Under the pieces are notes generated by a model that was given only the letters and a program-made list of their open reading frames with translations, had not been told where the DNA came from and searched no databases. The position numbers and the translations under genes are program-made. Of a stretch of 64,000 nucleotides of DNA, positions 33,397-64,000 are shown piece after piece (within the stretch, counting starts at the first letter, position 1; each line of letters begins with the position of its first letter). Source of the DNA: Spinactinospora alkalitolerans (GTDB lineage Bacteria; Actinomycetota; Actinomycetes; Streptosporangiales; Streptosporangiaceae); the NCBI RefSeq assembly GCF_013408795.1, contig NZ_JACCCC010000001.1, positions 3,100,001-3,164,000 of the forward strand. The letters are read 5' to 3'.

Positions 33397-34338
33397 ATGG
33401 AACCGCACCACGGCCTGCACACCATCGGCGAACTGGCCAAACGCACCGGCCTGCCGGTCAAGACCATCCGGTTCTACGCCGACGCCGGCATCGTGCCGCC
33501 GACCGGGCGCAGCCCCGCCGGGTACCGCCTCTACGACGCCGAGGCCACCGCGCGCCTGGACCTGGTGCGCACCCTGCGCGATCTCGGCATCGATCTGGCC
33601 ACCATCGGCCGGGTCCTGGCGCACGAGGCCGACCTCGGACAGGTCGCCGCCGCGCACGCCGATGCGCTGGACGCCCAGATCCGCCTGCTGCGCCTGCGCC
33701 GGGCCGTGCTGCGCACCGTCGCCCACCGAGACCCGACAGAAAGGGACATCAGCCTCATGAACAAGCTCGCCCGGCTCTCCGCCGAGGAGCGGCAGCACAT
33801 CATCGACGACTACCACGACGCCGTCTTCGGCGGCCTCGACATGGACGATGAGTTCGTCGCCAGGATCCGCTCGATCGGACCCGACCTGCCCGACGAGCCG
33901 ACCGCCGAACAGGTCGACGCCTGGGTCGAGCTCGCCGAACTCGTCTCCGACCCGGCCTACCGGGAGCGCGTCCGCGAGATGGCCCTCGGCCAGGCCCGTG
34001 CGCGCGCCGAGGGCGTCTACCGGCAGCCGCCGCAGGAGGTCGCCGAGCTCGTCTCCGGCAGGGCCGGGGCCGCGCTGAACGCCGGCCTCGACCCGGCCTC
34101 ACCCGCCGGACAGGCCGTCGTGGCCGAGGTGATGCCCGCCCTGGCCCAGGCGCACGGCCGCGCCGACACCCCGGACCGGTGGGCCGAGCTCGCCGACGAG
34201 TTCGCCGCCTACACCGACGCCCGCGTCGAGCGGTACTACCAGTTGATGGGCATCATCAACGGCTGGCCGCCCTTCGAGGCGCGGGTCCCGGCCTGGGAGT
34301 GGTTCATCGCCGCCCTGCGCGCCGGAGCCCGGAGCTGA
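33397..34338 (+). CDS. MerR-family regulator, TipA-like
   Basis: A 313-residue MerR regulator. The DNA-binding domain (about 7-75) shows HTIGELAKRTGLPVKTIRFYADAGIV and GYRLYD. A helical dimerisation segment follows (76-115), then a long C-terminal helical region (120-313) with QHIIDDYHDAVFGG, as in TipAS-type or related antibiotic-sensing domains. In TipA this part binds thiopeptides; whether it does here is unknown. It probably regulates itself through the 19-bp-spacer promoter. It converges on the Ser/Thr kinase across a strong hairpin. Confidence 0.9.
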   Translation: MEPHHGLHTIGELAKRTGLPVKTIRFYADAGIVPPTGRSPAGYRLYDAEATARLDLVRTLRDLGIDLATIGRVLAHEADLGQVAAAHADALDAQIRLLRLRRAVLRTVAHRDPTERDISLMNKLARLSAEERQHIIDDYHDAVFGGLDMDDEFVARIRSIGPDLPDEPTAEQVDAWVELAELVSDPAYRERVREMALGQARARAEGVYRQPPQEVAELVSGRAGAALNAGLDPASPAGQAVVAEVMPALAQAHGRADTPDRWAELADEFAAYTDARVERYYQLMGIINGWPPFEARVPAWEWFIAALRAGARS

Positions 34339-51530: not shown

Positions 51531-52967
51531 ATGACGAAACTCGACGAAACGGGCCCGCAGGTGCGGGACCGATCGGATCGATCCTGGCTCGACCGGTTTT
51601 TCTTCATCAGCGAGCGCGGCTCCGGCATCGGACGAGAGGTCCGCGGCGGCCTCACCACCTTCATGGCGATGGCCTACATCATCGTCCTCAACCCGATCAT
51701 CCTGGGCGGCGCCACCGACATCAACGGCGACAGCCTGAACGCGGCCCAGCTCACCACCATGACCGCGCTCTCGGCGGGCATCGTCACCATCCTCATGGGC
51801 GTCATCGGCCGGGCCCCCATCGCCCTGGCCGCCGCACTCGGCGTGATGGCCGTGGTCGCCTACCAGGCCGTGCCGCTGATGACCTGGCCCGAGGCGATGG
51901 GCCTGGTGGTCTGGCAGGGGATCATCATCATCCTGATGGTGGTCACCGGCATCCGCACCGCCGTGATGAACGCGCTCCCGCACGACCTGAAGGTGGCGAT
52001 CGGCGTCGGCATCGGCCTGTTCGTCGCCCTGATCGGGCTGGACAACGCGGGTTTCCTCAGCGCGGGCGACGGCAAACTGCTGCAGCTCGGCGCCGACGGC
52101 CACCTCTCCGGCTGGCCGATCACGGTGTTCATCATCGGGCTGCTCGTCTCGGGCGTGCTGCTGGCGCGCAGGGTCTCCGGCGCCATCTTCTACGGCATCA
52201 TCACCGCCACCGTCATCGCCGTCGTCGTGCACCAGGTCTTCGGCCTGGAGCCCGGGGCGTGGGGCGGCGGCGTGCCCGAGCCGCCCGACCAGCTCCTGGT
52301 GGCCCCCGACTTCGGGCTGCTCCTGCAGGTCGACATGTTCGGCGCCTGGTCCTCCGCCGGGGTGGCCAGCGCGGGGGTCATCCTGTTCACCCTGGTCCTG
52401 GCCGGCTTCTTCGACGCGCTGGGCACCATCCTGGCCGTCGGCGACAAGGCCGGCCTGACCGACCGCAACGGCCAGATGCCGCGCACCAACGAGATCCTGG
52501 CCATGGACGGCGTCGGCGCGGTCTCCGGCGGCCTCACCAGCTCCTCGGCCACCCTGGTGTTCGTGGAGTCCACAGCGGGGGTCACCGAGGGCGCCCGCAC
52601 CGGGCTGGCCAGCGTCGTCACCGGCGGGCTGTTCCTGGTGGCGATCCTGTTCGCCCCGGTCTTCGGCATGGTGCCGGCCCAGGCGGCCTCGGTCGCCCTG
52701 GTGCTGGTCGGCGCGATGATGATGATGGGCGTCGGCCGGATCGGCTGGGACGACATCACCGTCGCGATCCCCGCGTTCCTGACCATCTCGCTGATGGCGT
52801 TCACCTTCGACATCGCCAACGGCATCGGCGCCGGCATCGTCGTCTACACGGTGCTCAGGAGCGCCGTCGGCAGGCACCGCGAGGTGGGCTGGCTGATGTG
52901 GGTCCTGACGGGGGTCTTCGCGGTGCACTTCGGCATCACCGGGGTCGAGCACCTGCTCGGCGTCTGA
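51531..52967 (+). CDS. AzgA-like NCS2 purine permease
   Basis: A 478-residue transporter of the NCS2/AzgA branch, importing guanine, hypoxanthine or adenine with protons. GGLTTFMAMAYIIVLNPIILGG lies near residues 39-60. The second-repeat signature is FFDALGTILAVGDKAG near 297-312, followed by TSSSATLVFVESTAGVTEGARTGLA. About 13 membrane segments. The ATG at 51531 has GGAGGGGACC upstream. It has its own 288-bp upstream region after a terminator, so it is a separate transcript, probably also under PucR. It completes a purine-scavenging locus. Confidence 0.95.
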   Translation: MTKLDETGPQVRDRSDRSWLDRFFFISERGSGIGREVRGGLTTFMAMAYIIVLNPIILGGATDINGDSLNAAQLTTMTALSAGIVTILMGVIGRAPIALAAALGVMAVVAYQAVPLMTWPEAMGLVVWQGIIIILMVVTGIRTAVMNALPHDLKVAIGVGIGLFVALIGLDNAGFLSAGDGKLLQLGADGHLSGWPITVFIIGLLVSGVLLARRVSGAIFYGIITATVIAVVVHQVFGLEPGAWGGGVPEPPDQLLVAPDFGLLLQVDMFGAWSSAGVASAGVILFTLVLAGFFDALGTILAVGDKAGLTDRNGQMPRTNEILAMDGVGAVSGGLTSSSATLVFVESTAGVTEGARTGLASVVTGGLFLVAILFAPVFGMVPAQAASVALVLVGAMMMMGVGRIGWDDITVAIPAFLTISLMAFTFDIANGIGAGIVVYTVLRSAVGRHREVGWLMWVLTGVFAVHFGITGVEHLLGV

Positions 52968-55633: not shown

Positions 55634-55902
55634 GATCCACCTCCGCTTTCGGGAGCGTTCTCGGCTGGGCGGCCGCGGGGACACCGGCGCCGCGATCGGC
55701 GTCCGGGCCGGCGCGGGGAGCGGGCGGTCGGCACGGACGCCTGGCGGCGCCCGGCAGCGCGCCGGTGCGCTGACACCCTGCTGGACGACCCAGGAATTGT
55801 CAGCAAGTGTACGCACCGGCGCCCCGGAACGGGCCGGTGCCCCGTCGCCGACCGGGTCCGGAGAGCCGAATAGGCCCGTCGGCGGGCGGGCATCCTGGAG
55901 GG

Positions 55903-56637
55903 ATGGACCAACCGGAACTGCGCGTGCGCTTCGCCGCCGAACTGCGGTTCTTCCTTCCGCCGCGGCACCGGCGCGTCGACCTGCGCGTCGCCCACGACGC
56001 GACGTCGTCGCTGGGGCACGTGGTCGAGTCGGCCGGCGTCCCGCTCCCCGAGGTCGGCCGCATGCTCGTCGACGGCGAGGAGGTCCCGCCGTCGCACCGG
56101 CCCGGTCCCGGCGCCACCGTGGACGTCCACGCGGTGCGGCGGCCGCAGGAGGTGCCGTTCTCCGCGCCGCGCTTCGTCCTGGACGTCCACCTCGGCGCGC
56201 TGGCGCGGAGGCTGCGGCTGGTCGGCGTGGACACCGCCTACCGCAACGACCGCGACGACGACGCCCTGGTCGACCAGGCCAACGAGGAGCAGCGGGTGCT
56301 GCTGACCCAGGACCGCCGGCTGCTGCACCGCAGGCGCCTGCGGGCCGGGGCCTACGTCCGCGGCGCCGACCCGGACCGGCAGTTCGACGACGTCCTCGAC
56401 CGCTTCGCGCCGCCGCTGGCCCCGTGGAGCCGCTGCACGGCCTGCAACGGGGCGGTGCTCCCGGTGCGCAAGGAGGACGTCGCCGACATGCTGGAGCCGG
56501 GCACCCGGGCGAACTACGACACCTTCGCCCAGTGCCGCGACTGCGGGCGGCTCTACTGGCCCGGCGCCCACCACCGGCGGCTCGCGGCCCTCGTCGCCGC
56601 GGCCGGGGAGACCGTCTCGCGCCGGGCGGCCCCGTGA
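55903..56637 (+). CDS. Mut7-C RNase-domain protein with ubiquitin-like N-terminus
   Basis: A 244-residue two-domain protein. The N-terminal beta-grasp (Mut7-C_ub, about 5-80) reads VRFAAELRFFLPP...GVPLPEVGRMLVDGEEVPP. The PIN-like Mut7-C domain (about 90-240) has RFVLDVHLGALARRLRLVGVDTAYRND and LLTQDRRLLHRR. A zinc ribbon is formed by CTAC and CRDC (near 180-225). Predicted to cleave RNA or bind it with the beta-grasp as a partner module; experimental knowledge of the family is scant. ATG at 55903 with GGAGG 4 nt before it. Divergent from the aminotransferase. Confidence 0.9.
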   Translation: MDQPELRVRFAAELRFFLPPRHRRVDLRVAHDATSSLGHVVESAGVPLPEVGRMLVDGEEVPPSHRPGPGATVDVHAVRRPQEVPFSAPRFVLDVHLGALARRLRLVGVDTAYRNDRDDDALVDQANEEQRVLLTQDRRLLHRRRLRAGAYVRGADPDRQFDDVLDRFAPPLAPWSRCTACNGAVLPVRKEDVADMLEPGTRANYDTFAQCRDCGRLYWPGAHHRRLAALVAAAGETVSRRAAP

Positions 56638-56691: not shown

Positions 56692-56742
56692 TTGTCCGGC
56701 GGACTTCAGTGCAGTAGGTTCATGATTATCAATAGCACTGAA
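56692..56742 (+). promoter_or_regulatory. LLM-gene promoter with operator and inverted repeat
   Basis: A -35 TTGTCC (56692-56697) and -10 TAGGTT (56715-56720) are 17 bp apart. TCATGATTATCA (56720-56731) covers the predicted start and matches 12 bases of the palindrome at 61238-61252 in reverse complement. In addition TTCAGTGC (56705-56712) and GCACTGAA (56735-56742) form a perfect 8-bp dyad around it. Confidence 0.68.
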
Positions 56743-56755
56743 AAGAGGGAGTGAC

Positions 56756-57766
56756 GTGTCCCTGAAGTTCGGCCTCGCCGTCATGAACGACTTCCCGCCG
56801 GACGTGGTGCCGGCCGACCGCATCGCGGCGCTGCGCGAGCAGGTGCGGGCCGCCCGCGACGCGGGCATCTCCTCCGTCTGGGTGCTGCAGCACTACCTCG
56901 GCAACATGCCCACGCTCCAGCCGGTGCCGCTGCTGGCCGCACTGGCCCGGGACGCCGGCGAGATGGCGCTGGGCACCAACATGTTCATCCTGCCCCTGCG
57001 GCATCCGGTCGAGGTGGCCGAGGAGTTCGCGACGCTCGACCACATCACGGGCGGGCGCGCCGTCGCCGGGTTCGGGATGGGCTACCGCGAGAACGAGTTC
57101 GCGTCGTTCGGCGTGGCGCTGGAGGACCGGATCCAGCGCTACGAGGAGGGCGTCGGCCTGATCCGGAGCCTGTGGTCGGGAGAGCCGACGACGTTCGAAG
57201 GGAAGCACTTCCGCGTCGAGGACCAGCGCATCGGCCTCGAACCGGTCCAGCAGGGCGGGCCGCCGATCTGGGTCGGTGCGGGGCCGCACCGGACGGGAGC
57301 CCACCGCGCGGCGCGGCTCGGCGACGCGTGGATCGTTCCGCCGCACGTCACGCCGGAGCGGCTGGAGGCCGTCCTCGGGCACTACCGGGCCGAGCGCGAA
57401 CGCCTCGGCCGCGGCGCCTCCGAGCTCGTCGTGCGCAGGGAGCTCGTGCTCGACGAGGACGCCGAGCGGGCCCGCGCCATCGGGATCCGGGCGCGCGGCG
57501 CGCTCACCCGCAGGTACGCCGCCTTCAACCCGCCCGAGCAGGGCGGGAACTACCGCCACCTGGAGACGGACAAGGCCGCCGAGGAGGTGGCGGACGCCTC
57601 CTACCTCTTCACCGACCCCGCCGGCGCCGTCGCGGCGCTGAAGGAGCTGGAACGGCGGGGCCTGACCTACGTCATCCTGCGGATGCAGTGGTACGACCTC
57701 GGCCAGGAGCAGGTGCTCCGGACGCTGGAGACGTTCAGGAACGAGGTGCTGCCCGCGTTCCGCTGA
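56756..57766 (+). CDS. LLM-class flavin/F420-dependent oxidoreductase
   Basis: A 336-residue luciferase-like TIM barrel using FMN or F420. It has ALGTNMFILPLRHPVEVAEEFATLDHITGGRAVAGFGMGYRENEF at residues 71-115, the core of the family. PPIWVGAGPHRTGAHRAARLGDAW follows near 169-192. Such enzymes oxidise or monooxygenate small carbonyl compounds. It heads the acyl-CoA catabolic region and shares its operator-like sequence, so it probably acts early or in a side reaction of that pathway. GTG start at 56756, with GAGGGAG upstream. Confidence 0.92.
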   Translation: MSLKFGLAVMNDFPPDVVPADRIAALREQVRAARDAGISSVWVLQHYLGNMPTLQPVPLLAALARDAGEMALGTNMFILPLRHPVEVAEEFATLDHITGGRAVAGFGMGYRENEFASFGVALEDRIQRYEEGVGLIRSLWSGEPTTFEGKHFRVEDQRIGLEPVQQGGPPIWVGAGPHRTGAHRAARLGDAWIVPPHVTPERLEAVLGHYRAERERLGRGASELVVRRELVLDEDAERARAIGIRARGALTRRYAAFNPPEQGGNYRHLETDKAAEEVADASYLFTDPAGAVAALKELERRGLTYVILRMQWYDLGQEQVLRTLETFRNEVLPAFR

Positions 57767-57775
57767 GCCCCGGCG

Positions 57776-57797
57776 GGCCCTCCCCGGTGGAGGGAGG
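57776..57797. terminator. Short bidirectional hairpin
   Basis: CCCTCC and GGAGGG pair across CCGGT in the 33-bp gap between the convergent LLM and GntR genes. Small, but well placed for both. Confidence 0.55.
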
Positions 57798-57799
57798 GT

Positions 57800-58546
57800 C
57801 TAGCCCATCACCTGGCTCCAGGAGACCTCCTGGGTGAGCAGGTCGGGGTACTTCACCTCGGCGTAGCGGACGTATTCGAGGATGTGGTCGCGCATCGCCT
57901 CGCCGGCCTGGGCGGAGTCGCGCGCGCTCAGCGCCCGGTAGACCCTTTCGTGGGCCTCCAGGATCGCGCTGCGGCGGTGGGCGGGGTAGTCGATGCCCAG
58001 GACCGTGCCGTCGAGCATGCCCAGGATGGCATCGACGAGGTGCCCGAAGAGCGCGTTGCCGGAGGACCAGGCGATGATGTCGTGGAAGCCCTTGTTGGCC
58101 TCCAGGAAGATCACGCGGTCCTCGATGTTGTCGCGCATGGTCGTGACGGAGTCGGCCAGGCGGGCGACGGCGTCGTCGTCCATCCGGTCGGCGGCGAGGG
58201 TGGCCATCACCGGCTCGAAGGCGCTGCGGGCCTCCATGATGACCCGGTAGGGCGCCTGGGCGAACTGCAGAAGCAGCATCAGGTTGGCCGCGAGGTGGGT
58301 GGAGTCGGGGCTGGCCACGACCGGCCCGCCGCCCGGCCCCGGCTTGAGGGTCAGGGCCCCCTGGAGCTCCAGATAGCGCAGGGCCTCCCGCAGGGTCCCC
58401 CGCCCGACGTTGTACTCATCGAGCATGATGCGCTCCGACGGCAGCTTGTCGCCGGCGGTGAGGCTCTGGTCCTTCATGTCGGCGACGATGCGCTGCGCGA
58501 TGATCATCGCCGTCTTCTGGGGTCGCGCCCGGTTCGCAACTACCAC
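57800..58546 (-). CDS. FadR/FCD-type GntR regulator
   Basis: A 248-residue GntR regulator. The winged helix (about 12-78) reads GDKLPSERIMLDEYNVGRGTLREALRYLELQGAL at residues 32-65. An FCD domain (about 95-230) follows, with NKGFHDIIAWSSGN and HRRSAILEAHERVYRAL supplying the metal-site histidines. The GTG at 58546 follows AAAGGAACG. It lies in the middle of the acyl-CoA genes, whose control regions share a palindrome; a 15-bp version lies just downstream of its own -10 box. It likely represses the locus and itself, released by an acyl-CoA or organic acid. Confidence 0.93.
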   Translation of the reverse strand: MVVANRARPQKTAMIIAQRIVADMKDQSLTAGDKLPSERIMLDEYNVGRGTLREALRYLELQGALTLKPGPGGGPVVASPDSTHLAANLMLLLQFAQAPYRVIMEARSAFEPVMATLAADRMDDDAVARLADSVTTMRDNIEDRVIFLEANKGFHDIIAWSSGNALFGHLVDAILGMLDGTVLGIDYPAHRRSAILEAHERVYRALSARDSAQAGEAMRDHILEYVRYAEVKYPDLLTQEVSWSQVMG

Positions 58547-58591
58547 GTCATCGTTCCTTTGCAGACCAGCGGGAAACCCCGGGACGAAAAT

Positions 58592-58615
58592 CCATGCATA
58601 TCATCAACAAGTATA
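58592..58615 (-). promoter_or_regulatory. GntR -10 box and operator-like palindrome
   Basis: On the minus strand a -10 box TATACT (58615-58610) is followed 3 nt later by TGATGATATGCATGG (58606-58592). That matches 11 of 15 bases of TCATGATAATCATGA at 61238-61252. The site would overlap the transcription start. No good -35 box is seen. Confidence 0.55.
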
Positions 58616-58668
58616 GGTGCCCGCTGCTGTGCGTAGGCTAACGCGTCGAAATCGCACACGGAGAGTTC

Positions 58669-58686
58669 CGGGGCCGCGGGGCCCCG
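58669..58686 (-). terminator. Terminator hairpin after the ligase gene
   Basis: CGGGGCC (58669-58675) pairs with GGCCCCG (58680-58686) around GCGG. It is 20 nt past the ligase stop in its transcription direction. Confidence 0.55.
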
Positions 58687-58705
58687 CCGGAGGGACCCCG
58701 CGTTC

Positions 58706-60346
58706 TCATGCGCGTTCGCGCCCGGCCAGCCGGTCGTGGGTGTCGGCGGTGACGCCCGCCTCGCGCAGGACCGCCTTTCGCACCTTCTCCGAAGGCGTCT
58801 TGGGCAGGCTCTCCACGACGCGCAGGAAGCGCGGGACGGCGAAGGCCGGCAGCCGGGAGTCGCACCATGTCCACAGCTCTTCGGGGCCGACCGGCTCGCG
58901 CGTGACCACGCAGGCCATGACCTCGTCCTCGCCGGCGTCGACATCGGCGGCGACGGCGACGACCGCGCACTCGGCGACCGCGCCGTGGCCGAGCACCGCC
59001 TGCTCGACCTCGTAGGAGCTGATGTTCTCGCCGCGCCGGCGCAGCGCGTCCTTGTAGCGGTCGACGAAGTAGTACCAGCCCTCGGCGTCGCGGCGCAGCG
59101 CGTCACCGGTGTGGAACCACAGGTTGCGCCACGCCTCGGCGGTGCGCTCGGGCATGCCGTAGTAGCCCATGCTGGTGATCCAGGGCACCTTGGGCCGCAC
59201 GACCAGCTCGCCCACCTCGCCGACCGGGACCTCCTCGTCGGTCTCGGGGTCCACCAGGCGCACGTCGAACCACTCGGCCGCGGCGAGCCCGGCCGCGCCG
59301 GCGGGGCGGTCCTCGCCGTAGGGCGACAGGATCGGCGCCGAGGTCTCGGTGAGGCCGAAGACCTCGACGAAGGCGTCGACGCCGAAGCGCTTCCTGCAGT
59401 CGTCCAGGATCGAGGTGGCGGTGGGGGCCGCGAAGACGCAGCGCAGCGGGTTGTCCCGGTCGTCGGGCCGCGGGGGCTGCTTGTACACGAAGTCCATCAT
59501 CACGCCGATGAAGTTGGTGACGGTGACCCCGGACTCGCGGATCTGGTCGATCCACCGGCTGGCGCTGAAGCGCGTGCGCAGGACGAACCGGGCTCCGGCC
59601 ACCAGCGCGGGGTAGGCCGACATGAACTGGGCGTTGCCGTGGAACAAGGGGGTGGTCACCATGGCGGCGTCGGCGTCGGTGAGCCTGGTCAGGCAGGCGG
59701 TCTCCGCGGCGAAGAAGAACATCTGCGCGTGCGGCATCGCCACGCCCTTGGAGGGGCCGGTGGTGCCGGAGGTGAAGAAGATGGAGGCCAGTGAGCGGGG
59801 CGACACCTCGGGCAGTTCGCCGTCGCGGGCGGCGGTGAGGCCGTCCCAGCGCTCGGCCCGCAGGCCGGCGGCGCGCAGCGCGGCGATCGCCTCGTCGGCA
59901 CCGCCGTGGTCGATCACCCAGAACCGCTCGATCCCGGCGCACTCCTCGGCCGTCTCGATGAAGCGGGCGGCGTGCTCGTCGTCGATGACCGCCCAGCGCG
60001 ACCGCGAGGTGCGCACCTGGTGGGTGAGGAAGTCGCCCTTGTAGGCGGTGTTGACGGGCACCTCGACCATGCCGGCCAGGGCGCTGCCCAGCCAGCTGAA
60101 GACGAAGGCCGAGGAGTTGCGGGCCATGATGACCACCCGGTCGCCGGGGTCGCCGTCGGCGAGCAGCGCGCGGGCGACGTTCTCGGCGGTGGCCAGGGTC
60201 TCGGCGTAGGTCCAGCGCCGTCCCTCCTCGGGGACGTCGAGGTAGACGTCGCCGGGGGCCAGTTCGGCGCGGCGGCGCAGCACCGTGGGCAGCGCCCAGT
60301 CCGCGCGGTCGGGGAACCGGGGCCGGAGGTCCTCGTAGACGCGCAT
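58706..60346 (-). CDS. AMP-dependent acyl-CoA ligase
   Basis: A 546-residue ANL-superfamily synthetase activating a carboxylic acid to its CoA thioester with ATP. The P-loop is FFTSGTTGPSKGVAMPH near residues 171-187. VEVFGLTETS (motif II) lies near 300, WFHTGDALRRDAEG near 411, DRYKDALRRRGENIS near 429-443, and the C-terminal catalytic lysine in TPSEKVRK. It is similar in layout to crotonobetaine/cyclohexanecarboxylate-type ligases. The ATG overlaps the stop of the upstream crotonase gene by one base, so the two form an operon. It supplies the CoA ester for the pathway. Confidence 0.93.
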   Translation of the reverse strand: MRVYEDLRPRFPDRADWALPTVLRRRAELAPGDVYLDVPEEGRRWTYAETLATAENVARALLADGDPGDRVVIMARNSSAFVFSWLGSALAGMVEVPVNTAYKGDFLTHQVRTSRSRWAVIDDEHAARFIETAEECAGIERFWVIDHGGADEAIAALRAAGLRAERWDGLTAARDGELPEVSPRSLASIFFTSGTTGPSKGVAMPHAQMFFFAAETACLTRLTDADAAMVTTPLFHGNAQFMSAYPALVAGARFVLRTRFSASRWIDQIRESGVTVTNFIGVMMDFVYKQPPRPDDRDNPLRCVFAAPTATSILDDCRKRFGVDAFVEVFGLTETSAPILSPYGEDRPAGAAGLAAAEWFDVRLVDPETDEEVPVGEVGELVVRPKVPWITSMGYYGMPERTAEAWRNLWFHTGDALRRDAEGWYYFVDRYKDALRRRGENISSYEVEQAVLGHGAVAECAVVAVAADVDAGEDEVMACVVTREPVGPEELWTWCDSRLPAFAVPRFLRVVESLPKTPSEKVRKAVLREAGVTADTHDRLAGRERA

Positions 60347-61140
60347 CAGTGCTCCCTCGGGCCGGTGAACGGGGGCTCGAAGCGGGGCGGCCGCTTCTCC
60401 ATGAAGGCGCGGGCGCCTTCGAGCATGTCGGCGCTGCCGACGGCCTGGGCGAGCATGCCGATCCCGCTGCGGAACGAGTCGCGGGCGCTGTTCCACCACA
60501 GGTTGGAGCTGATCTTGGCGATCTCGAGGTAGCGCGGGCTGAGCGCGAGGAGCTCCGCCGCCCACTCCTCGACCACGGCCTCCAGCTCGTCGGGGTCGGC
60601 GACCGCGTTGACCAGCCCCATGTCCAGGGCCTCGGCGGCCGTGTAGCGCCGGCAGAGGAAGGACAGCTCCTTGGCGCGCTTCTCCCCGATCTGCACCGAC
60701 ATGACGTTGGTGCCGCCGAGGACCGGGGCGCTGCCGACGCGGGGACCGGTCTGGCCGAAGGTGGCCCTGCTGGAGGCGATCGCCAGGTCGCAGGCCACGA
60801 CCAGTTCGTTGCCGCCGCCGGCCGCAGCCCCGTTGACGGCGGCGATCACCGGCCGGGGGGAGGTGCGGACCGCGTCGACGAGGTCGAGGGACCCCTCGTA
60901 CATGGCGCGCACCTCGCGCGGGTCGGGGTCCTCCATCCGGGCCAGGTAGCCGCCGGCGCAGAAGCTCCTGCCCTCTCCGGTGAGCACGATGACGCCACTG
61001 TCGGCGCAGTCCTCGATCGCCGCGACCACCGATCGCGCCATCGCGCCGTCGAAGGCGTTGCGCCGCTCGGGCCGGTTCAGCCGGATCCAGGCGGCGCGGC
61101 CGCGCCGTTCGATCCGCACGTCTTCCTCTGGATCTCCCAT
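60346..61140 (-). CDS. Crotonase-family protein of the MenB/BadI subgroup
   Basis: A 264-residue crotonase. The oxyanion hole glycines are in CAGGYL (61-66) and AAAGGGNELVV (105-115). FGQTGPRVGS at 128-137 has Thr-Gly-Pro where true enoyl-CoA hydratases have the second catalytic glutamate. CRRYTAAEALDMGLVNAV near 170-187 is the pattern of naphthoyl-CoA synthase (MenB) and 2-ketocyclohexanecarboxyl-CoA hydrolase (BadI). No other men gene is near, so ring opening of an alicyclic beta-keto acyl-CoA is more likely than menaquinone synthesis. It is first gene of the minus-strand operon with the ligase. Confidence 0.88.
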   Translation of the reverse strand: MGDPEEDVRIERRGRAAWIRLNRPERRNAFDGAMARSVVAAIEDCADSGVIVLTGEGRSFCAGGYLARMEDPDPREVRAMYEGSLDLVDAVRTSPRPVIAAVNGAAAGGGNELVVACDLAIASSRATFGQTGPRVGSAPVLGGTNVMSVQIGEKRAKELSFLCRRYTAAEALDMGLVNAVADPDELEAVVEEWAAELLALSPRYLEIAKISSNLWWNSARDSFRSGIGMLAQAVGSADMLEGARAFMEKRPPRFEPPFTGPREH

Positions 61141-61163
61141 GACACCCCCAGCTTTCTACCGTA

Positions 61164-61252
61164 TAATCATATTCATAGATTAGATCGCACACCTCACCCG
61201 CCCGAGCGAGCCAGGCCACCGCATCCCTAAAGGCATCTCATGATAATCATGA
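61164..61252. promoter_or_regulatory. Divergent control region with palindrome TCATGATAATCATGA
   Basis: In the 149-bp gap between the crotonase and acyl-CoA-dehydrogenase genes, 61238-61252 is a 15-bp palindrome with an A centre. A second ATAATCAT lies at 61164-61171 next to the crotonase start. Similar sites stand at 56720-56731 and 58592-58606. The region is far more AT-rich than its surroundings. Confidence 0.65.
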
Positions 61253-61289
61253 ATACCAATATATGAAAAGCTTCCGAAAGGGGACGCCG

Positions 61290-62450
61290 GTGAGCGCCTT
61301 CGAGCTCAGCGAGGAACAGCAGCACCTCAAGGAGACGGCCGCACGCCTGGCCGCGGACGTCTACGCCCCGCACGCCGCCGAATGGGACCGCGAGCGGACC
61401 TTCCTGCCCGCCGAGGAGCGCCTGCGCCTGGGCAAACTGGGACTGCTCGGCATCGCCCTGCCCGAGGAGTACGGCGGCTCCGGCGCTCCCCTCATGGACG
61501 CCCTGATCGTGGTGGAGGAGCTGGCCAAGGTCTGCCGGCCGGCCGCCTTCCAGGTCTTCGAGGCCAACACCGGGCCGGCGCGGGTCGTCGCGCTCATGGG
61601 CACCGAGGAGCAGAAGCAGCGCTTCCTGCCCGGGATCGCCGGCGGCGAGGCGACCATGGCGGTGGGCATCTCCGAGCCCGACGCCGGATCGGCGGCGACC
61701 GACATGACCACGAGCGCCCGCAAGGTCGGCGGCGAGTTCGTGGTCAACGGGACCAAGCGCTGGATCTCCGGCGGCGGGCACGCCGAGTACTACCTGCTCT
61801 ACGCCCGCATGGACGAGGCCCCCGGCCACCGGGGCATCGGCGCCGTCGTGGTCGAGGCCGACACCCCGGGCCTGACCTTCGGCCCGCAGGAGCAGTTGAT
61901 GGGCTTCCGCGGCATCCCCTCATGCGACCTGATCTTCGACGACGCCCGGGTACCGGTGGAGAACATGGTCGTCGAGCCCGGCGGGTTCCGCGACCTGTTC
62001 CGCGCGTTCTCCATCGAGCGGCTGGGCAACGCCACGATGAGCCTGGCCATCGGGCAGGCCGCGCTCGACCGCAGCGCGCGCTACGTGCGGGAGCGCGAGC
62101 AGTTCGGCAAACCGCTCGCCGAGTTCCAGACCGTCCAGTCCATCCTGGCCGACATGCTCATCCAGGTGGAGAGCGCCCGGCTGCTGATCCACCGGGCCGC
62201 CGCCAACGCCGGAACCGGCCTGCCCGACCCGCTGGAGGCGTCGCTGGCCAAGTGCCACGCCAACGAGATGGCCAAGCGGGTCAGCGACCTCGGCATGCAA
62301 CTGCACGGCGGCAACGGCTACACCGAGGAGTTCGGCCTGGAACGCCTGCACCGCGACGCGCACGGCTGGGCGATCGCCGGAGGCACCCCCGCGATGCAGC
62401 GCGTCCGGATCGCCTCGCAGATGCTGGGGCGCCGGTTCGGCCAGCGGTAG
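61290..62450 (+). CDS. Acyl-CoA dehydrogenase (IVD-type catalytic Glu)
   Basis: A 386-residue FAD acyl-CoA dehydrogenase introducing an alpha-beta double bond. ISEPDAGSAATDM (127-139) and WISGGG (158-163) bind FAD. The MCAD-type glutamate of YEGT is replaced by Gly (AIAGGT, 361-366), but Glu243 in SIERL on helix G sits where isovaleryl-CoA dehydrogenase has its base. Branched or cyclic acyl-CoA substrates are therefore likely. I prefer the GTG at 61290, with AAGGGGA upstream, over the ATG at 61263. It is first of an operon with a second dehydrogenase and an SDR. Confidence 0.93.
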   Translation: MSAFELSEEQQHLKETAARLAADVYAPHAAEWDRERTFLPAEERLRLGKLGLLGIALPEEYGGSGAPLMDALIVVEELAKVCRPAAFQVFEANTGPARVVALMGTEEQKQRFLPGIAGGEATMAVGISEPDAGSAATDMTTSARKVGGEFVVNGTKRWISGGGHAEYYLLYARMDEAPGHRGIGAVVVEADTPGLTFGPQEQLMGFRGIPSCDLIFDDARVPVENMVVEPGGFRDLFRAFSIERLGNATMSLAIGQAALDRSARYVREREQFGKPLAEFQTVQSILADMLIQVESARLLIHRAAANAGTGLPDPLEASLAKCHANEMAKRVSDLGMQLHGGNGYTEEFGLERLHRDAHGWAIAGGTPAMQRVRIASQMLGRRFGQR

Positions 62451-62493: not shown

Positions 62494-63621
62494 GTGTTCG
62501 ATCTACCTCCGGACCACCAGGGCATCAAGGACGAGGCCGCGCGGCTGGCCGACTCCCTGCGCCCGATCGCCGCCCGGGCCGACGAGGCCGACCGGGTCGA
62601 CGCGGACGTGGCCGCCGCGCTGCGCGAGAGCGGGCTGTGCGGGCTGACCGTCCCGCTGCGCCACGGCGGCCGCCACGAGCGCGTGGACCCGCTCGCCGTG
62701 ACCGTCGCAAGGGAGTCGCTGTGCGCCGTCTCGGCGCACCTGGACTCGCTCTTCGCCCTCCAGGGCATCGGCGGCCACGCGCTGGCGGTGAGCGGCAACG
62801 AGGCCCTGGCCGCCGAATGGCTGCCCCGGGTCGCGCGCCTGGACGCGATCGCCGGGCTGGCGCTGACCGAGCCGGACGCCGGCTCCGACCTCAAGAACAT
62901 CGGCACCCGGGTGCGGGCCAAGGGCGGCGAGCTCGTCGTCTCCGGGCACAAGACCTTCATCTCCAACGGCGCCGACGCCGACTTCTTCACCGTGCTCTGC
63001 CGCGAGGACGAGGGCCATTCCCTGGTGCTGGTCCCGGCCGGCCTGCCGGGGGTCACGGTGCGGCCCAGCCCGCAGATCATGGCCCCGCACGTGCTCGGCG
63101 ACATCGAGTTCGCCGATGTCGCCGTCCCCGAGTCCCACCGCCTCAGCGCGCCCGGCGGCGGCTTCGCCCCGGTCCTGGCCACCCTGAGCACCTTCCGCGT
63201 CTCCGTGGCCGGTGCGGCGGTCGGCCTGGCCCAGGCCGCACTCGACGAGGCGGTCCGCCACACCCGCGAGCGCGAGCAGTTCGGCAGGCCGCTCATCGGG
63301 ATCGGCGCCGTCGGACAGATGCTCGCCCTGTCCTGGACCGAGATCGAGATGGCCCGCTCGCTCACCTACCGGGCGGCCTGGCAGGCCGGCCGGGACGCCC
63401 GGGCGGCGCTGCACCTGTCCTCCATGGCCAAGGTCGGCGCCACCGAGACCGCCGGCAGGGTCGTCGACCGCAGCGTGCAGGCGATGGGCCGGTTCGGCCT
63501 CGTCCGGGGGTCGGTCATCGAGCGGCTCTACCGTACGGCGCGGCCCATGCGGGTCTACGAGGGCGGTACCGAGGTCATCCTCGACTCCCTCGCCAAGACC
63601 CTGGCCAAGGGGGAGGCCTGA
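62494..63621 (+). CDS. Acyl-CoA dehydrogenase (MCAD-type catalytic Glu)
   Basis: A 375-residue acyl-CoA dehydrogenase. TEPDAGSDLKN (125-135) and FISNGA (155-160) are the FAD-binding strands. The classic base is kept as Glu356 in YEGGTE, while the helix-G position lacks a glutamate (TFRVSVAG). It thus differs from the dehydrogenase just upstream and probably acts on another intermediate or a second desaturation. GTG start at 62494, with AAGGAGAG upstream and 43 bp after the previous gene. The stop overlaps the SDR start (TGATG at 63619-63623). Confidence 0.94.
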   Translation: MFDLPPDHQGIKDEAARLADSLRPIAARADEADRVDADVAAALRESGLCGLTVPLRHGGRHERVDPLAVTVARESLCAVSAHLDSLFALQGIGGHALAVSGNEALAAEWLPRVARLDAIAGLALTEPDAGSDLKNIGTRVRAKGGELVVSGHKTFISNGADADFFTVLCREDEGHSLVLVPAGLPGVTVRPSPQIMAPHVLGDIEFADVAVPESHRLSAPGGGFAPVLATLSTFRVSVAGAAVGLAQAALDEAVRHTREREQFGRPLIGIGAVGQMLALSWTEIEMARSLTYRAAWQAGRDARAALHLSSMAKVGATETAGRVVDRSVQAMGRFGLVRGSVIERLYRTARPMRVYEGGTEVILDSLAKTLAKGEA

Positions 63622-64000
63622 TGACCGGGGAGCTCGAAGGCAGGGTGGCGCTGGTCACCGGCGCGGGCCGGGGGATCGGGGCCGCGATCGCCCGCGGGTT
63701 CGCCGAGCGCGGGGCGCTCGTGGTCGGCGCGGCCCGCTCCAAGGACCAACTGGAGGAGCTGGCCGCCGAGGACCCCGAGCACATCTTCGCCGCCGCGGTG
63801 GACCTGCGCGACGAGGCGTCGCTGTCGGGCCTGGTCGACCTGGTCGTCGAGCGGCACGGCCGGATCGACGTCCTGGTCAACAACGCCGGCGTCGCCCCGG
63901 CGGCCGACTTCGTTCATGAGCCGGTCCAGCAGTGGCGCGACACCCTGGCGGTGAACGTGATCGCCCCGATGGCGCTGGCCCAGGCCGCCGGACGGCACTT
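63621..64000 (+). CDS. Short-chain dehydrogenase/reductase (cut by window end)
   Basis: The first 126 residues of a classical SDR. The cofactor-binding TGAGRGIG is at residues 13-20, DLRD near 58, VLVNNAGVAPAADF near 85-98, and NVIAPMALAQAAGRHF at the end of the window. The Ser-Tyr-Lys catalytic part lies beyond the edge. It is coupled to the second acyl-CoA dehydrogenase. In this setting it would oxidise a beta-hydroxyacyl-CoA, as BadH does in cyclohexanecarboxylate degradation. Confidence 0.92.
   Translation, partial: MTGELEGRVALVTGAGRGIGAAIARGFAERGALVVGAARSKDQLEELAAEDPEHIFAAAVDLRDEASLSGLVDLVVERHGRIDVLVNNAGVAPAADFVHEPVQQWRDTLAVNVIAPMALAQAAGRH

Follow-up and report, generated by a model that had tools for sequence, protein, structure and literature searches.

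The DNA analyzed here (the window) comprises 64,000 nucleotides, C1:3100001-3164000 of the 6.68 Mb genome of Spinactinospora alkalitolerans, and carries a gene for an FCD-type GntR regulator surrounded by catabolic genes. An initial annotation, made from the sequence alone, had proposed that an AT-rich palindrome at 61238-61252 recurs around this gene and defines its regulon. We describe the sites, their conservation in orthologous loci and the protein most likely to bind them. The genes concerned are listed below.

56756-57766, plus strand: LLM-class (luciferase-like) oxidoreductase (PF00296, E 3e-50)
57800-58546, minus strand: FCD-type GntR regulator, predicted to be a likely repressor (PF00392 and PF07729, both above cut-off; relatives 44-61% identical at 76 loci)
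58706-60346, minus strand: acyl-CoA synthetase (AMP-binding), ACS (PF00501)
60346-61140, minus strand: crotonase-family enzyme, ECH (PF00378)
61263-62450, plus strand: acyl-CoA dehydrogenase ACD1 (PF00441, PF02770, PF02771)
62494-63621, plus strand: acyl-CoA dehydrogenase ACD2 (PF00441)
63621-64000, plus strand, continuing past the window end (whole in L031:8621-9370): short-chain dehydrogenase SDR1 (PF00106, PF13561)

The regulator consists of an N-terminal GntR winged helix (PF00392, 50.6 bits against a cut-off of 27) and a C-terminal FCD domain (PF07729, 79.4 bits, cut-off 24.3). For ECH, the best NCBIfam score was that of BadI (TIGR03210, 184.6 bits), below the cut-off of 467.6. Relatives of ACD1 align from about residue 5-21 onward, and its start may well be the GTG at 61290.

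The exact palindrome, TCATGATAATCATGA, lies at 61238-61252, and this 15-mer is single-copy in the genome; at two mismatches, three places were found genome-wide, 56720 among them. The matches reported for it were all confirmed at their coordinates: 56720-56731 (TCATGATTATCA) is its reverse complement over 12 bases, 58592-58606 agrees with it at 11 of 15 positions when reverse-complemented and at 10 of 15 when read forward, and 61164-61171 (TAATCATA) is a partial match (7 of 8). Allowing up to three mismatches, the window holds six matches, at three places on both strands, where 0.03 would be expected by chance, and in 100 dinucleotide shuffles the count never reached six; one of the three places, 51922, falls within the open reading frame (ORF) 51531-52967. 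The family operator is best described as a longer imperfect 20-mer, about TAATCATnnnCATnGATT, and the 15-bp palindrome as a special copy of it. This corrects the initial annotation. The four candidate sites and a candidate promoter are listed below.

56692-56720, plus strand: candidate LLM promoter, read from the sequence (TTGTCC 56692-56697, 17 nt, TAGGTT 56715-56720)
56715-56736 (core 56720-56734), no strand assigned: predicted operator 1, on the LLM -10 element and immediately downstream
58589-58608, minus strand: predicted operator 2, within the promoter of the regulator gene itself and next to TATACT (58610-58615)
61162-61181, no strand assigned: predicted operator 3, in the divergent intergenic region, towards ECH; the strongest family-like site
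61233-61263, no strand assigned: predicted operator 4, on the ACD1 side, containing the palindrome 61238-61252

Two of the sites had been said to overlap predicted transcription starts. The hexamers named for this, TTGTCC-17-TAGGTT and TATACT, are present, and operators 1 and 2 lie on or beside these -10-like hexamers, of the LLM and regulator genes respectively; because a consensus promoter scan lists neither set, however, both starts are putative. Operator 3 overlaps ATGACA-17-TATAAT on the plus strand, and operator 4 lies 27-57 bp upstream of GTG 61290.

A Mut7-C RNase domain fused to a Mut7-C ubiquitin-like domain is encoded at 55807-56637, directly upstream of operator 1.

Conservation of the motif and its co-occurrence with the regulator

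Four of 59 other genomes compared encode a regulator 52-59% identical to the 57800-58546 protein, the next match being 38% identical. A scan of genome contigs gave 79 loci, from which L113-L115 (27-32% identity) were excluded; the other 76 have relatives at 44-61% identity, the less identical of which may be paralogues. They lie in Nocardioides, Thermobifida, Herbidospora, Rhodococcus, Nocardia, Gordonia, Aeromicrobium and others. The same enzymes surround many of these loci, providing 20 ACD1 and 31 thiolase (THL) upstream regions. ACD1 and thiolase are divergent in 16 loci, most of which show two conserved intergenic islands, for example TTGTAATCATTATCCTAGATT nearer ACD1 and GAATATCATGATAAGCATTAGG nearer the thiolase gene; TCATGATAAGCATTA, part of the latter, matches the window palindrome at 13 of 15 bases.

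An expectation-maximization motif search was performed on upstream regions from orthologous loci, with the window excluded, using 40 starts for the real data and 15 for shuffles. Log-likelihoods were 316 (ACD1), 334 (THL) and 522 (regulator upstreams), against 74-141 in three shuffles of each. The ACD1 and THL regions yielded ATCATGATAA-type motifs, and those of the regulator yielded TAATcATnngCATngATT. Lack of conservation in orthologous loci had been set beforehand as a point on which the proposed regulon would fail; the de novo search finds the motif in the orthologous upstreams. The ACS upstreams alone gave only an unrelated weak pattern in this search, and no site is expected there because ACS is mostly operon-internal.

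Two profiles were then scanned against the window. The ACD1/THL profile was trained on 47 non-window upstreams, 8 of which score below 8 bits and which are not independent because ACD1 and THL upstreams overlap at divergent loci; the regulator profile was trained on 66 other regulator upstreams. With the former, the best four places were 61242/61233 in operator 4 (22.4 bits), 56715 in operator 1 (16.2), 61162 in operator 3 (15.9) and 58596 in operator 2 (13.9); the fifth, 51920 (12.5 bits), is ORF-internal, and ten base shuffles peaked at 4.8-9.9 bits. The regulator profile placed operator 3 at the top of the window (61162, 32.6 bits) and operator 2 second (58589, 25.7 bits), gave operator 1 20.9 bits, and had its top seven matches all within the four sites, the eighth being at 34241 (19.2 bits). 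Profiles trained without the window pick the same four places, and the sites are therefore recovered from data that did not contain them.

In a leave-one-genus-out test, thresholds of 12, 15 and 18 bits were reached by 65, 55 and 41 of the 76 regulator upstreams (73 loci); for 1520 random, mostly coding windows from the same loci, the corresponding counts were 83, 50 and 40. At least one regulator upstream at 15 bits or more (rounded) was present in 19 of 24 genus-level groups when held out. Three LLM relatives (L055, L062, L198) likewise have a similar site 35-41 nt upstream of the start. Many soil bacteria related to this one have corresponding sites next to these genes.

Furthermore, the motif follows the presence of the regulator. 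With the ACD1/THL profile, ACD1 loci reached 14 bits in 11 of the 12 regulator-bearing genomes versus 0 of the 14 lacking it (p 1.6e-6), several of the scored loci (G344-G347 genus, G013) being close to or identical with training loci. These ACD1 relatives came from 29 loci in 29 of 30 other genomes (G077 had no locus, and second ACD1 copies in G027 and G256 were left unscored); three loci of genomes with only distant regulators, one of which (G281) has the motif, were kept out of the comparison. A 38-site profile, R1, was used for genome searches, although it is too short for sensitive searching of this kind. At E<=1 it matched 10 of 342 genomes (names only partly listed), comprising 8 of the 25 with an ortholog and 2 of the 317 without (G134 and G068); the 25 reappeared in a sample of 339 genomes. 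Its top match in the present genome is operator 3 (61161-61182, E 0.099). G118 has three R1 matches, within 41 kb together with its ACD1 and regulator; the match in G185 is on the same contig as its ACD1 and regulator, and that in G013 lies just upstream of an LLM relative on another contig. As far as can be told, the matches in G118, G185 and the present genome are independent of the training sites.

Assignment of the sites to a protein

FCD domains usually carry an Asp/His/His/His metal site, although it is absent from some members. In the 57800-58546 protein, to which 2di3, 6az6, NanR (6on4) and PdhR (9jpj) are the nearest solved structures in sequence, His 155, 199 and 221 are kept in 75, 69 and 72 of 75 orthologs; the Asp position (N151 here) is N in 52, T in 11, S in 9 and D in 3. 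The recognition helix reads G-R-G, with G48 and G50 invariant in all 75 orthologs, whereas 24 other FCD proteins of relatives have Gly at the two positions in 2 and 1 cases, respectively, and S at the first in 22.

With LldR, PdhR and NanR, members of the FCD-containing FadR subfamily, the regulator shares its winged helix and FCD domain; promoter-proximal operators, autoregulation and two-site divergons, described as usual for the subfamily in the available part of PMC4494728, are also predicted here. The same part gives TKGT/ACMA boxes, with GT and AC 2-3 nt apart, as the usual operator. The operator here is without those boxes, GT-N2/3-AC occurring in only 7 of 52 sites of other genomes. 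NanR and BioR also depart from the common consensus, but their motifs (TGGTATAW repeats and TTATMKATAA) differ from the present one, and the gene set found here is not named for the LldR/PdhR/NanR subfamily in that part of the source. The comparison offers the suggestion that the unusual recognition helix may be linked to the unusual operator, a pairing that bears on how FadR-type proteins read DNA.

The motif, how well it is conserved, where it is placed and its association with the regulator are computational observations; binding and repression we infer from them. The four AT-rich sites very likely serve as operators for the 57800-58546 FCD-GntR protein, which would repress the nearby catabolic genes. 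The initial proposal of a regulon around this regulator was right in substance. Members of the FadR subfamily bind DNA as dimers and are released by organic acids. Here a dimer would most likely recognize an inverted repeat, imperfect and some 20 bp long (TAATCATnnnCATnGATT or a variant), at or close to the -10 element, positions that fit repression. Bound there, it would repress the regulator gene itself and LLM as well as two operons, ECH-ACS and ACD1-ACD2-SDR1. Release would be brought about by a pathway intermediate, most likely an acyl-CoA or its acid.

Several results weigh against this assignment. With the genus held out, 11 of the 76 regulator upstreams stay below 12 bits. One of the 12 ACD1 loci with the regulator (L147) has no site, and with the regulator profile 2 of the 14 loci without it reach 18.9 (L163) and 20.3 bits (L162). 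Of the four window sites, R1 recovers a single one at E<=10 and, at E<=1, only the 8 of 25 regulator-bearing genomes given above, at least four of which (three of the G032 genus, and G345) have near relatives among its training sites. Metal-regulator-like boxes elsewhere score 15.6-17.1 bits, similar to the LLM site. Finally, 15 bits are reached by 44 of 366 AT-matched windows drawn from these loci at a distance from mapped genes, although part of these may be true operators of unmapped genes.

The AT-matched windows, together with the position of the sites on or beside -10-like hexamers, would fit a likeness that is simply shared promoter sequence, that is, AT-rich -10 regions in a GC-rich genome. 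We regard this as scarcely plausible, given that the motif is found in none of the 14 ACD1 loci of genomes without the regulator (ACD1/THL profile), that none of 24 unrelated FCD regulator upstreams reaches 15 bits with the regulator profile, and that profiles from other genomes single out these four places within 64 kb. A FUR-family metal regulator (Fur or Zur) has also to be considered. The core ATGATAATCAT of 61238-61252 resembles the E. coli Fur consensus, GATAATGATNATCATTATC in the available part of PMC545781, and recurs at genome positions 2184827 (CobW-type gene) and 2496153 (FecCD permease); because metal-type boxes score as high as they do, 61238 alone is open to misreading. Nevertheless, a GATAATGATNATCATTATC-like core is found only at 61238, and 56720, 58589 and 61162 lack it; the orthologous sites (TCATGATAAGCATTA and TAATCATnnnCATnGATT forms) have no Fur arms; and the motif tracks the FCD regulator across genomes, while the window genes are not metal genes. 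Fur/Zur boxes have the core ATGATNATCAT in common with 61238 and differ in arms and gene context, and a metal-regulator box in place of a GntR site is therefore highly improbable.

As a separate observation, AATGATAATCATT-type boxes lie upstream of the CobW-type gene with a permease nearby (2184827, L176) and of the FecCD permease (2496153, L177), and are probable Zur/Fur boxes. Other look-alike places in this genome, among five examined, score 13.6 bits (6489091) and 10.9 bits (4592131).

A serious rival to the 57800-58546 protein is a second FCD regulator encoded just beyond the window.

Genome 3168945-3169709 (L031:13945-14709): GntR2, second FCD-GntR paralogue, 35% identical to the 57800-58546 protein

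The operators might be read mainly by GntR2, or by both paralogues, and not by the 57800-58546 protein alone. The CaiB, CitE and thiolase genes around GntR2 have similar sites (L031:13461 and 17230), and both paralogues stand side by side in G027 and G118. G281, whose only regulator is of the GntR2 type (52.5% identical to the GntR2 of this genome; one match at E<=1e-50), still has an ACD1 site, of 36.9 bits and on the same contig; the sites may therefore belong to either or both paralogues, and this genome also counts against the assignment made above. However, a GntR2 reaches the listing threshold in only 2 of the 76 loci (L053 and L054, in stretches of up to 10 kb on each side), yet the motif is widespread, and it lies upstream of the GntR gene itself in 55 of the 76 upstreams. 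A second GntR copy is listed at four further loci (L057, L059, L060, L091). On this evidence we consider reading mainly by GntR2, or by both paralogues, less likely, although the initial annotation has to be amended in that the second paralogue may share the sites.

Sites beyond the window

The genes reached by the motif had all been placed in one catabolic locus. This holds inside the window, but not outside it. Downstream of the window lie genes for an amidohydrolase, a second crotonase, a short-chain dehydrogenase, the thiolase THL, GntR2, CaiB and CitE-like proteins, and the ACD1/THL profile detects the two sites mentioned above at genome positions 3168461 and 3172230. Moreover, the second and last R1 match in the genome, at 3686007 (E 3.07), stands 525 kb away, before a gene for an FMO-type, Baeyer-Villiger-like monooxygenase (PF00743; PtlE model 307.8 bits, cut-off 1100).

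Genome 3686007-3709000 (L182, L181), 525-550 kb away: second catabolic island, with sites of the same motif

This island encodes the monooxygenase, two Oxidored_FMN proteins of the old-yellow-enzyme (OYE) type, an alcohol dehydrogenase (ADH), an aldehyde dehydrogenase (ALDH), a ferredoxin reductase, an ADP-forming acyl-CoA synthetase and a TRAP DctP protein. Sites score 20.5 bits before DctP and 19.0 before ALDH, and those of the OYE-type genes are weaker or found with one profile only (14.9, 20.5). No relative of an FCD regulator was detected in the island by tblastn with both regulators. In other genera, relatives of its genes (monooxygenase, ALDH, OYE, DctP) are located no more than about 10 kb from the regulator gene: monooxygenase relatives at 63-66% identity occur at nine regulator loci, in Nocardioides, Pimelobacter, Aeromicrobium and a Nocardioidaceae genome, and ALDH, OYE and DctP relatives at others.

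Upstream regions of predicted targets in other genomes, all outside the training sets and including the three LLM relatives, were also scored, a pass being G>=20 or B>=15. Passes were obtained for 26 of 42 upstreams. Among the controls, 34 of 840 random windows passed, as did 1 of 24 upstreams of unrelated FCD regulators and 36 of the 366 AT-matched windows. By gene, the 26 were monooxygenase (10/16), ALDH (7/12), DctP (4/6), OYE (1/4), LLM (3/3) and ferredoxin reductase (1/1). Examples are AATATTCATACGCATTGATT upstream of a Nocardioides monooxygenase and ACTATTCATGCGCATTGATT upstream of the monooxygenase in this genome.

The regulon is thus probably larger than the window. Its other operators would serve the thiolase and CitE side and the distant monooxygenase, OYE, TRAP-transporter and ALDH genes. 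Since similar operators precede catabolic genes outside the window, the two clusters probably form a single split regulon, serving a CoA-dependent breakdown pathway that starts with an oxygenase, and distant parts of this genome would thereby be tied into one likely pathway. Judging by gene content, the substrate is perhaps a cyclic ketone or a similar alicyclic compound or acid, and the ligand most likely an acyl-CoA. No description of this regulon was found in the literature searched, which covered few subscription journals. Tentatively, we suggest an FCD-GntR clade with an invariant G-R-G helix, two operator-sharing paralogues and an operator devoid of GT/AC boxes, which might govern an undescribed, widespread actinobacterial regulon for Baeyer-Villiger-started, CoA-dependent breakdown of cyclic compounds. 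The analysis supplies an operator, a regulator and a set of targets, all open to testing, for a catabolic regulon present across many actinobacterial genera.

Just past the DctP site of the distant island, a second palindrome, TCCATGCGCATGGA, is present at L181:9314-9327; it resembles the ATGCGCAT element of several regulator operators.

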